Shown here: piece by piece, positions 35,704 to 42,307 of the stretch | Layout: each line of letters opens with the position of its first letter | Numbering within the stretch: the stretch's first letter is position 1 | Assembly (NCBI GenBank): GCA_022828225.1 | Contig: JAJEJG010000004.1 | Location: forward strand, 39,605-103,604 | Source of the DNA: Nitrospirales bacterium | GTDB lineage: Bacteria; Nitrospirota; Nitrospiria; Nitrospirales; UBA8639 | Length of the DNA stretch: 64,000 nt | Direction: 5' to 3' | Position numbers and translations under genes: made by a program | Notes under the pieces: model-generated | What the model was told of the DNA's origin: nothing | Database searches by the model: none | The model's input: only the letters and a program-made list of their open reading frames with translations

Positions 35704-36264
35704 ATGGATAGCCCGCTTGGCAAAGGCATCTTCCTGGTGGCAAGCCCCGGTCTCCGCGATCCGAATTTCCGGCAGACCGTCATCCTGCTGTGCAAACACG
35801 GCCCGGAGGGAGCGCTCGGGGTCGTCGTCAATCGACCGACGGAGATCAATATCACCGAAGTGCTCCCACAAGTCCCCATCCTGGAAGGCCAACAGCACCG
35901 GGTCTTTTCCGGAGGACCGGTCCAACGCAACAACCTCCTGATCCTGTATCGGACGCCGGAAGGGCCGGACGACTCTCACCACGTCTTCAACGGCGTCTAC
36001 ATGGGCGGCGACATGAAAGACCTGGAAGATCTGTTACAAGATCCATCGTCCCTGGGGAACTTCCGCGCCTTCATGGGCTATGCGGGCTGGGCGCCCGGCC
36101 AACTGGAAAACGAAATGCGAACCGGGTCGTGGCTCACGGTCCCGGCCGACTCCACCACCATGTTCGGCAAGGACCACAATAGCCTGTGGGGCAATATCCT
36201 CCGATCCCTGGGTACAGACATGGCCTTCTACGCCGACATGCCCGCCGACCCGCAGATGAATTGA
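35704..36264 (+). CDS. yqgE: YqgE/AlgH family protein (DUF179)
   Basis: The 186-residue cytosolic protein matches the family along its length: GIFLVASPGLRDPNFRQTVILLCKHGPEGALGVVVNRP, then FSGGPVQRNNLLILYRT, then FMGYAGWAPGQLENEMRTGSWL. Crystal structures exist for the family, but its molecular role is unsettled (linked to alginate control in Pseudomonas). It follows the YggX-like gene and marks the end of the core block before the accessory island. Confidence 0.93.
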   Translation: MDSPLGKGIFLVASPGLRDPNFRQTVILLCKHGPEGALGVVVNRPTEINITEVLPQVPILEGQQHRVFSGGPVQRNNLLILYRTPEGPDDSHHVFNGVYMGGDMKDLEDLLQDPSSLGNFRAFMGYAGWAPGQLENEMRTGSWLTVPADSTTMFGKDHNSLWGNILRSLGTDMAFYADMPADPQMN

Positions 36265-36376
36265 GCAGCAACACCCCTCCTCTTCACCTCATGGAAGACG
36301 ATCAGCCTCCGAACACATTGATTCCAATCGTTTTCTGGGGGTCACACTAAGACGCCGAATAATAGGCAACTGTCGA

Positions 36377-38137
36377 TCAGTGGCTCAGAAGCTTGGCCAA
36401 CTCCGTGTTCAAGTGGGAAAAGGCGTCGATCACTCCGTCGAAGACATGATCGAGGGCAAGACCGTAGCCTTGGTTCAAAGCCGCCGTGTCGAAGCCGAGG
36501 GTCTCAAGGCTCCTGAGCACGCCGCCTGTGTCATGTGCGTCCGCTATGCGAAGATCGTTGTTGACGAACAACGCTGCAAGGGCACCGTTTTCGGTCGTCA
36601 AGTCTCCCGGCTCTGCGTCGGCACCGAAGGCGTCGACACGCTCACCCTTGGCGTTCAGCCGCTCTACGATGTTTAATAAGGCTTGCAGCAACTTAAGGCT
36701 GCCTAGGGTCTTGATATCCGAGCGGGTGTGGCCGGCACTCACTAGAAGGTTTCGCAGGAAGCCGTTTGGAATGCGTTGCCAAAGCTCATGAAGGTTCTTA
36801 CACCGCGAGAGAAAAGCTTGCTCCGTCATGGAAAGTGGAGCCACCTGAGCGAGGCGTGACAGTTCAGGATAGTTCAACCAGCCATTGTCGCGCAGTTCCG
36901 CACGGGAGAGCTTAAAGATTTCGGTTGCTGGCCGCGGTGCCGCGCCTGCGGCGTCGCTCAGTTCCGCGAGGTGATCGCCAAGATCTAGCAGTTGTTCCAC
37001 AAAGCGGCCTGTCTTGGAAACGATGTGCTCTTCATCTAGGTTGAGCTCCGCGACTTGGACAGGATCGAGCACGTGGTCATAAGCGTGCTTTATCTCTCGA
37101 TCTGGCTTCGGCTTATAGAGTTCCCGCATCGATACCTTAATTAGATTGCGGCCAACCCGAACGCAGTCTGTGAAGGCCCACTGACCGCCGTAGGATGGGC
37201 TACAATTCCACTTTCCATAAATGTTAACTGGTGATGTGTCGAAAAGACTGCTCTGCTCATACCGTTCTAGAAATCGGTCATCGAGGTGTACGGGCATGAT
37301 CTCGACGAGAGCATTGGCTCGGTCGTGCGTCATTGGACCGGCAACACCTGGCCAGATTAGACCGTTCGCGCTCGGTTCGGGGCTGAGCTCCGGAGTGACC
37401 GCAACTACACTAGCCAAGACCTGTATTAGAAGCCCGCCCTTGTGCTCTCGGATGTCGAGGTCGTACCAGCCGCCACCAGGGTTTAGTCGCGCGTGACCCT
37501 CGCCCGCCATCAATGCCCGGAGGTCGGGGCAATCCGGCAACAGAGTTTCGTAAAAGAAAATCCGGACGCCGTAGGCGCCCCGCATCCAGAGGTAACGTCG
37601 CAGGTATTCGTTGGACATCGTCCAACTGACATTCCTCTTCGGAGAGAAGTAGTACTCGGTCGAGATTTCCCCCTGTGCGACCTCAAACGCCGGAAGCGAC
37701 AGGTCGTCAAAGATCACTCGCTGCTGGTCACCGCCAAGGCAGCGCGGCGAGAGTCCCAAGGCCATCCAGACCTTCTCCGCAAGACTGTAGCTGTAGAAGG
37801 AGCCGTTGCCCCAAGATGCCACGATGTAGTCGAGTCCAGACACCGACGGTGTGAAGTCCGCTAGTTCGCCTTGCTCCCTCACGTACGGTGTGGAAAAGAA
37901 GACCACGCCGTCACTGGCCTCCCGTGGAATACCTAGTTGGGCAATGTCAGCCTTCGGCACCAAAGCCATTACCATATGGACGTACTCACGATCCGGACCG
38001 TACTGGTCGACGTCGTATCGGGAAGCCACCTCGACCCGAAGTTGGGGGTTGTCGTTGATCGGCTCAAGCAGACTATGCAACCGCAACGGCAACTGCGTCG
38101 CCGGTATTGGAAACTCGTTCAGATAATCGATGACCAA
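36377..38137 (-). CDS. Unrecognised 586-residue protein with a C-terminal RX4H (HEPN-like) helical region
   Basis: I do not recognise the full protein. The first about 330 residues look mixed alpha/beta with many aromatic residues (VVFFSTPYVREQGELADF, YIVASWGNGSFYSYSLAEKVW). Residues from about 380 are helical. Near the C-terminus NNDLRIADAHDTGG contains R-x4-H, followed by LETLGFDTAALNQGYGLALDHVFDGVIDAF. This arrangement resembles the helical tail of HEPN-type or abortive-infection proteins known to me. The downstream neighbour of another RX4H protein (38350), both in a region with restriction-modification wreckage and higBA, it is a candidate defence effector. No membrane segment. Function is inference. 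Confidence 0.7.
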   Translation of the reverse strand: MVIDYLNEFPIPATQLPLRLHSLLEPINDNPQLRVEVASRYDVDQYGPDREYVHMVMALVPKADIAQLGIPREASDGVVFFSTPYVREQGELADFTPSVSGLDYIVASWGNGSFYSYSLAEKVWMALGLSPRCLGGDQQRVIFDDLSLPAFEVAQGEISTEYYFSPKRNVSWTMSNEYLRRYLWMRGAYGVRIFFYETLLPDCPDLRALMAGEGHARLNPGGGWYDLDIREHKGGLLIQVLASVVAVTPELSPEPSANGLIWPGVAGPMTHDRANALVEIMPVHLDDRFLERYEQSSLFDTSPVNIYGKWNCSPSYGGQWAFTDCVRVGRNLIKVSMRELYKPKPDREIKHAYDHVLDPVQVAELNLDEEHIVSKTGRFVEQLLDLGDHLAELSDAAGAAPRPATEIFKLSRAELRDNGWLNYPELSRLAQVAPLSMTEQAFLSRCKNLHELWQRIPNGFLRNLLVSAGHTRSDIKTLGSLKLLQALLNIVERLNAKGERVDAFGADAEPGDLTTENGALAALFVNNDLRIADAHDTGGVLRSLETLGFDTAALNQGYGLALDHVFDGVIDAFSHLNTELAKLLSH

Positions 38138-38349
38138 AGCGAGGCCCCTCGTGACCTTTCCCCTAATTTAGGTCCAGGTCGAGCGTGAAGGATTGGGGGA
38201 ATTATAGCCGCTGTGATAGCTGTGTGAAAATGGTCTCACTTTGGGAGGCACGGGGGGGCAGCCCCTCGTCGTTACAGTACCCGGCCACTGCTGGCTATGC
38301 CACCTTGCGGACTGAGATCTCATCGGAACGGCGCAGAAAATCAGAAACC

Positions 38350-39132
38350 TCATTGCTGTGACGATGTCAGCTTAGCCGTCGAAGTAAGTATTTGAAAGAT
38401 ATAGTCTGCCATAATAATCATGTTCATACTGTGTTTAAATGTAGAGTATGGAACAAGTCCGTGCGTGGACGCATGACGGTTTGGAACGTAATCCCCCTCA
38501 TATTGTGCCCTATTACTATCGTCGACTGGTTCATACAAGTGATGAACAAGTCGATCAAATAGTATCCAACCATAAGCCTCTCTTGGCAGGAAGTTTCTTA
38601 TTTCTCCTTGATTTGTAAGTTTCTCCAACATCTTCTTCGAGGAAATTGCACCCGCAGCATCTTCAAAATAATGAATGCGAAATTCCCGATCTATTTCTGG
38701 GAACAGGACACGGCAAACACACCGATAGTGCCCCATACCGTGCGCAGAAAGCGCTTCGCGAAATGTCTCTTTGGTTTCCTCTGATATGTGATAATGATTC
38801 AATCTATTTTCGATGTCTTGACGGATGCTTTCCCAATTGTTCTCGTAGAAACTTGTCAGACGGGCTTCGAGCAGAGATACATCGTCTCTGCATTCCTCAA
38901 CATAGTTCATCGACACAGTATGATACGGTAACCAGCCCGTCGGACGGACTGAATCGATGAATTTGTTATACCTCACAAAGTGCTTAATGTGCGGAGCTAT
39001 CGCTTCGAGAAAAGGCGTGATAGCTTGAGAGACACGTGACATTGATTGAATGAACGGCTGAAGAGGTTCAACCAATCGTTGCAACGCAGCACATAGGTTC
39101 AGAATACTTTGAATGGTTTGGTTATATGTCAT
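38350..39132 (-). CDS. Predicted HEPN-domain protein (putative RNase effector)
   Basis: 260 residues from the ATG of MTYNQTIQS, which overlaps the last codons of the restriction-modification remnant upstream. The C-terminal helix pair reads VPNRHASTHGLVPYSTFKHSMNMIIMADYIFQIL. NRHASTHG holds the R-x4-H motif expected of HEPN ribonucleases, and the trailing Y-x-T-x-K-x-S-x-N is common in HEPN/abortive-infection families. Base composition is clearly AT-richer than the flanks, suggesting transfer. It is followed, after 212 bp with no gene, by the 586-residue RX4H protein. Confidence 0.7.
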   Translation of the reverse strand: MTYNQTIQSILNLCAALQRLVEPLQPFIQSMSRVSQAITPFLEAIAPHIKHFVRYNKFIDSVRPTGWLPYHTVSMNYVEECRDDVSLLEARLTSFYENNWESIRQDIENRLNHYHISEETKETFREALSAHGMGHYRCVCRVLFPEIDREFRIHYFEDAAGAISSKKMLEKLTNQGEIRNFLPREAYGWILFDRLVHHLYEPVDDSNRAQYEGDYVPNRHASTHGLVPYSTFKHSMNMIIMADYIFQILTSTAKLTSSQQ

Positions 39133-39505
39133 GTGCGATGTTCCTACCTTGTCCAAATACGATCGCCGCGATCCGTCTCGTTGTGTCGGTGAAGTGCTGG
39201 ACTTCTTCGGGTTTGAGGGAGCGGTCGAGGATGTCGCTTTCGCGGTAGGAGAGCCATTTTTTGAGGACCTGATAGCCGCCGAGTTTGTAGGTCCAGACGG
39301 CGGCAGGGATGTTGCGCCAGAAGGCGCGGTCGTTCAGGTACACGTCGAAGGTGGTTTCGCCGAGCGTGGGGATGCTGTCGCCCAACGCTGACTTTTCACC
39401 TGGTGTATAGGCGCGCTCGGTGATGCGGCCTTGGCCCGGCATGACGGTATCACCTGTTCCGAAGTGGCCCCAGCCAGCCATCACCGCGAAATCGTCTCCG
39501 GTCAT
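39122..39505 (-). pseudogene. C-terminal fragment of type ISP restriction-modification enzyme
   Basis: The 127-codon open frame reads GWGHFGTGDTVMPGQGRITERAYTP and AFWRNIPAAVWTYKLGGYQVLKKWLSYRESDILDRSLKPEEVQHF. This is the conserved C-terminus of single-polypeptide (LlaGI/type ISP-like) restriction-modification proteins of about 1000-1500 residues. The helicase, methylase and nuclease parts are missing. The N-terminus lies just upstream in another frame (39517..39711), so a large internal deletion has destroyed the gene. Confidence 0.8.
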
Positions 39506-39516
39506 GTTATGGCCGT

Positions 39517-39711
39517 CTATGGTTGTGGGAAGGCAATGTCGCCGACACAGAACACCTTGGGCTTGAGCGTTGCACCCACGACATTCAATAGGTTGGCGAG
39601 CGGCCCGTAGCTCGACCGCTCCCCGGTCGCGCCGCCCAACGCGCTGACTCGCCGGAGGTCGGCGAGGTAGGTTTCAATGGTTGCCGTGAGTTTTGTGTTC
39701 ATTCGGGTCAT
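39517..39711 (-). pseudogene. N-terminal fragment of the same restriction-modification enzyme
   Basis: The 64 codons MNTKLTATIETYLADLRRV..GGATGERSSYGPLANLLNVVG match the start of type ISP enzymes, where this segment leads into the nuclease domain. The frame stops after VGDIAFPQP. Only about 15 bp separate it from the C-terminal fragment, marking the deletion scar. Confidence 0.75.
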
Positions 39712-39768
39712 TTCTGCCTATGCGCTCTCATTCGTTGACAAAATGCCAGAGAAGGGACCATCACTGCT

Positions 39769-40062
39769 TCATGCCGGTTGCGGCTCGTAGCGTTCGATCT
39801 CGATCTGATTCTCACGTTCTTGCGCCCGCGCGATGTCGTAGGCGGTCTGCAAGCGTATCCAGGTTTCCGTCGTGGAGCCGAAAGCCTTAGCAAGCCGGAT
39901 TGCCATCTCGGATGACATGCGCGCACGGCCATTGATCAGGTTCGAAAGGGCTTGGCGACTGACGCCAAGGACCTTGGCACCTTCAGTCACGCTCAGACCA
40001 AGCGGCTCCAAACAAGCGGCGCGCACGACCTTTCCGGGGTGTGGCGGGTTGTTCATGGGCAT
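39769..40062 (-). CDS. higA: HigA-type antitoxin
   Basis: The 97-residue protein starts at [22 protein letters not shown] (GGAGGAGG upstream; the track start 40122 is too long). This is the HigA signature, followed by an HTH_3 domain: [39 protein letters not shown]. It neutralises HigB and represses the operon. It follows higB in the order typical of higBA, 25 bp apart. Confidence 0.92.
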
Positions 40063-40087
40063 TGGGAGGCCTCCTCCGTCTATGAGT

Positions 40088-40366
40088 TTAGTGGTAATCA
40101 ATGAGTTCCACATCATGGACATCCTCGCCTTCGAAGCGGAAGATGATGCGCCAGTTGGCCTTCACGGTTACCGACCAATAGCCCTTCAGAGCGCCTTTGA
40201 GCGCATGGAGCCGGTAGTGTGGAATGCGCATCGCCTCGGGAGACGTGGCGACATCAAGTTGGGCGAGAATCACCTCTACCCGTTCTTGCAGATCCGAATG
40301 GATGAGATTGGGGTCACTGCGCTCATACATGCGTCTGAGACCACGATGTCGGAAGCTCTGTATCAT
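40088..40366 (-). CDS. higB: HigB-type RelE-superfamily toxin
   Basis: 92 residues from [15 protein letters not shown]. The RelE/ParE fold has [46 protein letters not shown], the HigB/GraT-type ending with catalytic His/Tyr near the end. HigB cleaves mRNA on the ribosome. With higA it forms a complete type II toxin-antitoxin pair lodged between two fragments of restriction-modification gene. Confidence 0.9.
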
Positions 40367-40414
40367 CCGCAGAATGTAATCCGTCAATTGACGCTTGTCA
40401 ATAACGATTCATCA

Positions 40415-40515
40415 TTATCCACCCGATCCTCCGCGCCGTTCCGTAACGTGTCGGATTTTTTCAGACTTGAACGGGCGGTCGAGGATATCGCGTTCGCGAT
40501 AAAAAACCTTTTCTT
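40415..40515 (-). pseudogene. Second restriction-modification C-terminal relic
   Basis: In the minus strand the frame reads VFYRERDILDRPFKSEKIRHVTE before a stop. This parallels LSYRESDILDRSLKPEEVQHFTD of the fragment at 39122. It is a short, decayed second copy of the same protein end, just upstream of higB. No other part is visible. Confidence 0.6.
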
Positions 40516-40570
40516 GAGCATCTCACGTCTTAGCAAAATCGGTTCAATTCTGTTATTTTATTTGGCTGTC

Positions 40571-40605
40571 CCCCTCACCCTGCCCTCTCCCTCCAGGGGA
40601 GAGGG
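40571..40605. repeat. R6 hairpin repeat, copy 2
   Basis: CCCTCACCC-TG-CCCTCTCCCTCCAGGGGAGAGGG, related to 8314..8350. It lies between the restriction-modification relic and the PEP mutase gene. No gene is seen in 40516..40672. Confidence 0.65.
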
Positions 40606-40672
40606 AATTATAGAGACTCTCTCCCGAGGAAAAGGGTCTTAAAACTGGCATTGGCAGAATTGTTGAAACCTA

Positions 40673-42307
40673 ATGAGCAAAGAGGCACCACCGTCCAAGA
40701 CCCGGCAATTCAAGGGGCTCCTGCAATCGGACCGGTTGGAGTTTCTTTGTGAGGCGCACAATGGGCTCAGCGCCAAGATCGTGGAGGAGGCGGGGTTCAA
40801 GGGGATTTGGGCCAGCGGGCTGACACTCTCCGCGCAATTCGGGGTGCGGGACAACAACGAAGCCAGTTGGACGCAGGTCCTCGACCACCTGGAGTTCATG
40901 TCCGACGCCACGAGGATTCCCATCCTGCTCGACGGCGATACCGGGTACGGGAATTTCAACAACATGCAGCGCTTGATCAAGAAACTGGAGCAACGCCGCA
41001 TCGCCGCCGTGTGCATTGAAGACAAACAGTTCCCCAAGACCAACAGTTTTCTGAAGGGCGAGACGCAGCCCATGGCCGGCATCGACGAATTCTGCGGGAA
41101 AATCAAGGCCGGCAAGGACGCCCAAAGCGATGCCGATTTCTGCCTGATCGCCAGGGTCGAAGCCTTTATTTGCGGCTGGGGTCTGTCCGAAGCCTTGAAG
41201 CGAGCCGAGGCGTATCACCAGGCCGGCGCCGACGGCATCCTCATTCACAGCGCCCTGGCGGTACCCGACGAAATCCTGGCCTTCAAGCAGGAATGGGGCA
41301 ATCGCTGCCCGGTGGTCATCGTGCCGACCAAGTATTACGCCACGCTCACGGACGTGTTCCGGCAACACGGGTTTTCCCTGGTGATTTGGGCCAATCACCT
41401 CCTCCGCGCGGCCGTGACCGTCATGCAGAAAACCGCGCGCACCCTGAAAGAAAACGAGAACCTGTTCTCGATTGAAGACAAGATCGCCCCGGTAGCCGAG
41501 ATCTTCCGGCTTCAGGACGCGGCGGAACTCCAGGAGGCCGAGAAACGCTATTTGCCCCACAACGGCGCCAGCCCGGCCGGGATCGTCCTGGCCGCGTCAC
41601 GCGGGAACGAACTGGGTGAATTGACGGAAGACAGGCCCAAGACCATGGTACCGATTCAAGGCCTGCCGATCCTGTCGCACATCGTCGATGCGTACAATAC
41701 GATCGGCATCAAGAACATTACCGTGGTTCGCGGCTATAAAAAGGAGGCCGTGTCGCTGCCCAACCTGACCTACGTGGACAACGACGATTTTGCCCAGACC
41801 GGAGAACTCGTCTCCCTGTTCAAGGCGTTGGAATCGAAGAACGGGGATTTTCAGGACACCATCGTTTCGTATGGGGACGTCCTCTTCAACACGCACATTC
41901 CCCAGATCCTGTTTCAGGAACCGGAGGATTGGGTGATTGCCGTGGACAGCGTCTGGGAAGGGAAGACCTCCTATACCCGGCTCGGGGGGTTCGCGGAATG
42001 CACCATGCCGAATTCGCGCATCGCGTTCAATGCGACAATCCATCTCAAACAATTGGGGCGGGACGTGCCGCGAGAATCCATTCACGGTGTATGGATGGGA
42101 TTCTTGAAGGTCTCGGCCAACGCAACCGCACAGTTGCACGGCATTCTCGGGGAGATGCTCGCCGATCCCGCCAACGACAAGGCGGGCATGGCTCAATTGT
42201 TTCAGGAATTGCTCAAACGAGGCGTCCCCATACGCGTACTCTACACGGTCGGGCATTGGCTGGACATCAACAGCCTCGACGACTTGGTACAAGCCGGCCA
42301 ATTTTAG
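40673..42307 (+). CDS. Phosphoenolpyruvate mutase fused to nucleotidyltransferase
   Basis: 544 residues. The N-terminal half is a PEP mutase of the isocitrate lyase superfamily: [11 protein letters not shown] (metal) and the diagnostic [11 protein letters not shown] (about residues 123-133), which separates true mutases from relatives. From about 300 a sugar-nucleotide-type transferase domain follows ([43 protein letters not shown]), like the 2-aminoethylphosphonate cytidylyltransferase PntC. The pair suggests synthesis of a phosphonate head group for surface polymers or lipids. No phosphonopyruvate decarboxylase or transaminase is in the window. No clear Shine-Dalgarno. Its stop lies in a 13-bp direct repeat. 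Confidence 0.85.

Follow-up and report, generated by a model that had tools for sequence, protein, structure and literature searches.

The two adjacent genes described here, which code for proteins of 260 and 586 residues, are probably two independent single-gene defence cargos lying side by side in a chromosomal hotspot between yqgE and an aepX-like gene. The 260-residue protein would be a HEPN ribonuclease linked to restriction-modification (R-M) or other defence genes, and the 586-residue protein a separate, ApeA-like sensor joined to a presumed HEPN RNase. An earlier note on this DNA had read the two genes as a HEPN-based defence pair. Our data show that the actual unit is the yqgE-aepX interval, a variable cargo hotspot with R-M and toxin-antitoxin genes. 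We found no earlier description of a defence hotspot between yqgE and aepX. The analysis therefore adds this hotspot and two uncatalogued candidate defence families, since scans of Pfam, NCBIfam, PADLOC and PHROGs gave no usable match for either protein. The window in the following text is the whole stretch of DNA that was analysed (64,000 nucleotides), and its relevant features are:

36265 to 40672, no strand: cargo hotspot, variable across the genus, bounded by yqgE (35704-36264) and the aepX-like gene (40673-42307)
36377 to 38137, minus strand: 586-residue protein, a candidate HEPN protein encoded by a solitary mobile cargo gene; beta-rich in its N-terminal part, helical in its C-terminal part, where D528-L-R530-x4-H535 lies
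38350 to 39132, minus strand: open reading frame of the 260-residue candidate HEPN ribonuclease, with R219-x4-H224 and [E/D]148-x3-[R/K]152
39122 to 39505, minus strand: 3' remnant of a type ISP R-M gene (Type_ISP_C), overlapping the start of the 260-residue gene
39517 to 39711, minus strand: 5' piece left from that type ISP gene, in a different frame from the 3' piece
39769 to 40387, minus strand: higBA toxin-antitoxin genes (HigA-like, 39769-40122; HigB, 40088-40387)
40440 to 40501, minus strand: another short type ISP relic, from the 3' end of such a gene, upstream of higBA

The yqgE-aepX hotspot

Both yqgE and aepX are present in all 14 genomes of the genus. In the genomes that carry the two genes on one contig, the distance between them is 98-190 bp in four (G002, G006, G007 and G009), ~1 kb in G003, 1.4 kb in G010, 4.1-4.4 kb in G004 and the window, and 6.9-8.3 kb in three (G001, G011 and G012). 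Across the genus the cargo includes type ISP R-M, MazF-like, PIN, HNH and FRG/pentapeptide genes. In G010, an HNH endonuclease gene is the sole large cargo of the interval (L055:1967-2989). The defence setting is thus stronger than the earlier note had claimed from a degraded type ISP gene and higBA, both of which are indeed present in the window.

Compared with an intact copy in L050, ~2.8 kb is deleted between the two type ISP remnants of the window. The type ISP genes of G000, G001, G005, G011 and G012 align closely until window position 39162, and all diverge beyond it. The relic at 40440-40501 suggests repeated insertion or recombination of type ISP genes at this site. In the sister genome G005, the type ISP gene is followed directly by an ApeA gene (L064:3024-4514; ApeA_NTD1, 2e-25; HEPN_Apea, 4e-11), so that the slot after 39162 holds ApeA in that genome and the 260-residue gene in the window. 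ApeA was present in 2 of 198 sampled genomes of the phylum and is thus rare there, which makes a second HEPN gene at this site notable.

Conserved motifs and the 586-residue protein

The sequences NRHASTHG and LRIADAHD, from which the HEPN reading arose, are present as residues 218-225 of the smaller protein and 529-536 of the larger one. The 260-residue protein holds three R-x4-H motifs and the 586-residue protein two, with 0.87 and 0.99, respectively, expected from shuffled sequences. Since shuffles yield about 0.9 per protein, a bare R-x4-H is at chance level in both. The named motif rises above chance in both families because it is conserved in the homologues.

The 586-residue frame starts with TTG at 38137 and ends at 36377 on the minus strand, and its start agrees with the N-termini of homologues (MVIDYL vs MIPDYL). 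D528, L529, R530 and H535 are invariant in the 14 members compared, at 25-61% identity. The other R-x4-H, at 445-450, was rejected as an active site, its H not being conserved. The residue following R530 is I, Q or N and so is not always polar, and E451-x3-[RK]455 is present in the main clade and unaligned in the alphaproteobacterial clade. In the predicted structure (pLDDT 76, pTM 0.60), the N-terminal part is beta-rich and the C-terminal part all helical. R530 is modeled near the end of helix 518-531 and H535 in the following loop, ahead of a long last helix (559-585), a placement that matches the motif site of HEPN proteins.

Homologues at 48-61% identity are found on Paraburkholderia plasmids and viral (prophage) contigs, and those at 25-27% on alphaproteobacterial plasmids. 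Tail, integrase, Y-family polymerase and spanin genes mark the prophage context. In addition, a homologue adjoins a TIR-type short-Argonaute (TIR-pAgo) gene in L010 and a ResIII/PbeA-like helicase gene in L080, while GajA is a few kb away in L008 and a Fic gene lies near the homologue in L009. The 586-residue gene is a solitary cargo of prophages, plasmids and defence islands. A scan of viral contigs with the alphaproteobacterial clade gave no confirmed match. On a Burkholderia glumae plasmid, the homologue is interrupted by frameshifts (L007:8001-9683).

Like ApeA (ApeA_NTD1, PF18862, with HEPN_Apea, PF18739), the 586-residue protein has, encoded by one gene, an N-terminal part rich in beta structure followed by a C-terminal helical part that holds R-x4-H. 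No member of either family matches the ApeA_NTD or HEPN_Apea Pfam domains. Profile comparisons of both families with the ApeA of G005, and of the two families with each other, found no relation; these negatives are weak evidence because the alignments are shallow. The C-terminal profile of the 586-residue family matched no HEPN chain, and its polymerase and Integrator matches are noise. Foldseek searches of the model against PDB or BFVD gave no significant fold match, and the BFVD matches are noise. Matches of the 586-residue protein to Lactococcus tape-measure proteins were weak and were rejected. A broader HEPN profile drawn from PF18739 and PF14355 matches had too few usable sequences.

It is less likely than not, though by no means improbable, that the 586-residue protein is no HEPN nuclease and that its R-x4-H is structural, in some other kind of prophage or plasmid cargo. 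The lack of a HEPN, ApeA or fold match speaks for this, as do the many further invariant residues (43 of 586 positions). On the other hand, R and H stay invariant down to 25% identity, the motif is predicted at a helix end before the long last helix, and defence genes are among the neighbours. The invariant D-L-R-x4-H, its modeled position and the defence and prophage neighbours make a HEPN nuclease plausible. If so, the beta-rich N-terminal part may sense infection and the C-terminal domain would be the presumed HEPN RNase.

The 260-residue family and its neighbours

The 260-residue frame runs on the minus strand from an ATG at 39132 to the end of its stop codon at 38350. AGGTAGGA lies upstream of this ATG, and the gene shares its first 11 bp with the 3' end of the type ISP remnant. 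As the earlier note had observed, the gene is AT-richer than its surroundings, with 43% GC against 57% in the 586-residue gene and 57-61% around them.

One scan of a genome collection found four homologues in three uncultured genomes, namely one in Binatia (59% identity), one in Nitrospinota (53%) and two in an alphaproteobacterium (54% and 42%). A later search added a sixth, distant member in G522 (E 8e-35). Identities in the family are 37-59%, the G522 member being more distant. A tblastn search against phages and plasmids returned no match to the protein, and a scan of viral contigs with the family no confirmed match. R219/H224 is the only one of the three R-x4-H motifs with both residues kept in all six members; those at 110 and 149 were rejected as active sites, as their H is not conserved. 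The six share PNR-[H/N]-A-x2-HG, with H after the R in five and N in G522, which gives the textbook form R-N-x3-H. All of them also carry [E/D]148-x3-[R/K]152, 70 residues upstream of R-x4-H. The HEPN signature consists of R-x4-6-H with a polar residue (most often N, D or H) after the R, and an upstream E-x3-[KR] (PMC3710099).

The AlphaFold2 model of the 260-residue protein is all-helical, with moderate confidence overall (pLDDT 69, pTM 0.65) and low confidence around the motif. Its first three Foldseek matches in PDB are of HEPN type, 2hsb (probability very high), 1ufb and 1o3u, the last still fairly high, all with E > 0.6; the HepT toxin 7ae8 is lower among these weak matches. The motifs, the weak fold matches and the defence neighbours make it very probable that the protein represents an uncatalogued family of HEPN ribonucleases. 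The HEPN reading of the earlier note is thus well supported for the smaller protein and plausible for the larger one, for which the structure prediction gave a helical C-terminal part with no fold match.

Known or candidate defence genes lie within a few kb at five of the six loci. In the window the type ISP remnant is immediately upstream on the same strand, and in L012 a 1394-residue type IIG R-M gene is 272 bp upstream, again on the same strand. Near the homologue in L013 are methylase genes (5mC and N6/N4), a gene for a type II REase-like ATPase and a TIR-like gene. L014 has a SIR2 gene upstream on the same strand and also a Dsr1-like gene. In L079, a pentapeptide gene is directly upstream on the same strand, accompanied by a KAP NTPase gene (PADLOC PDC-S49, 9e-182) and a CHAT gene. 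This locus is a compact island of the KAP NTPase, pentapeptide, distant 260-residue homologue and CHAT genes (L079:3993-14826). In L011, a HicB-like gene is upstream on the same strand.

R-M linkage has been noted in at least 16 HEPN clades, and a PrrC-like backup role was proposed for it (PMC3710099). The 260-residue protein resembles PrrC and other R-M-linked HEPN effectors in its HEPN motif and, in the window and L012, in the R-M gene immediately upstream. It differs from PrrC in having no ABC ATPase domain; moreover, the R-M partners here are of types ISP and IIG instead of type I, and that of the window is dead. With ApeA the 260-residue gene shares its position directly behind a type ISP gene, as in G005, but the protein is without the beta-rich part. 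It is weakly alike in modeled fold to HepT (the HEPN-MNT toxin) and the stand-alone HEPN proteins 2hsb, 1ufb and 1o3u, but has extra N-terminal helices, and no nucleotidyltransferase partner is seen beside the gene.

We infer the RNase activity of the protein and its trigger, and control by R-M by analogy with PrrC. In our proposal, the HEPN protein would be the RNA-cutting, growth-stopping arm beside a defence gene, whether R-M or another kind, and this neighbour would restrain or trigger it in the way of PrrC and type I R-M. Two chains would join their R219/H224 sites for metal-independent cutting of tRNA or mRNA. In the window, the deletion of ~2.8 kb from the type ISP gene leaves the effector without its R-M partner, and the 260-residue protein would be an orphan effector. 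More speculatively, and with better chances of being wrong than right, the family could be a promiscuous HEPN 'tail' effector behind unlike defence genes, the slot after the type ISP gene serving in this genus as an exchange site for either the 260-residue HEPN protein or ApeA as RNA-cutting backup. If the family is indeed an interchangeable HEPN arm of R-M, the proposal that HEPN proteins back up R-M (PMC3710099) becomes directly testable through a comparison of genomes that share a type ISP gene but differ in what lies downstream of it.

Alternatively, the 260-residue protein might be a HEPN toxin, alone or in a toxin-antitoxin relation, kept as addiction cargo with no role in R-M backup. 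HepT among the weak fold matches, the HicB-like gene in L011 and the persistence of the gene in the window after the loss of its R-M gene would fit such a toxin. Across the six loci, however, no small partner gene is conserved, and the neighbours differ from locus to locus, most of them being defence genes, so we consider this unlikely.

Relation between the two genes

Most probably, the two independent cargos are each an abortive effector that stands alone or is attached to R-M and would cleave RNA at an R/H site formed by a dimer. That both are functionless, decaying passengers of a degraded island is suggested by the adjoining type ISP gene, a deletion relic, but is very unlikely, as both frames are full length compared with their homologues and every invariant residue is intact.

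The earlier note located the two frames correctly, as neighbours on one strand, and the gap between them is 212 bp. Its claim of a pair fails on the neighbourhoods. Outside the genome of the window, no locus of either family holds both genes, and the 586-residue gene is absent from the whole genomes of L011, L012 and L013. Among 399 sampled genomes that were searched for both genes, only the small one occurs in G522 and G281, and only the large one in G427. Searches of other genomes of the phylum turned up neither gene, and matches at 7e-4 there are fragments. Since their relatives are never together outside this one genome, the two genes are not a pair. Homologues that are never linked were among the grounds on which the earlier note would have given up its claim, and by that standard the pair is refuted; the other such ground, R and H residues that are not conserved, does not apply. 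A two-component system in which the 586-residue protein senses infection and both HEPN parts cut RNA would suit the adjacency, the shared strand, the short gap and the conserved R-x4-H in both proteins, but is highly improbable given these separate distributions, and the GC contents of the two genes differ by 14 points.
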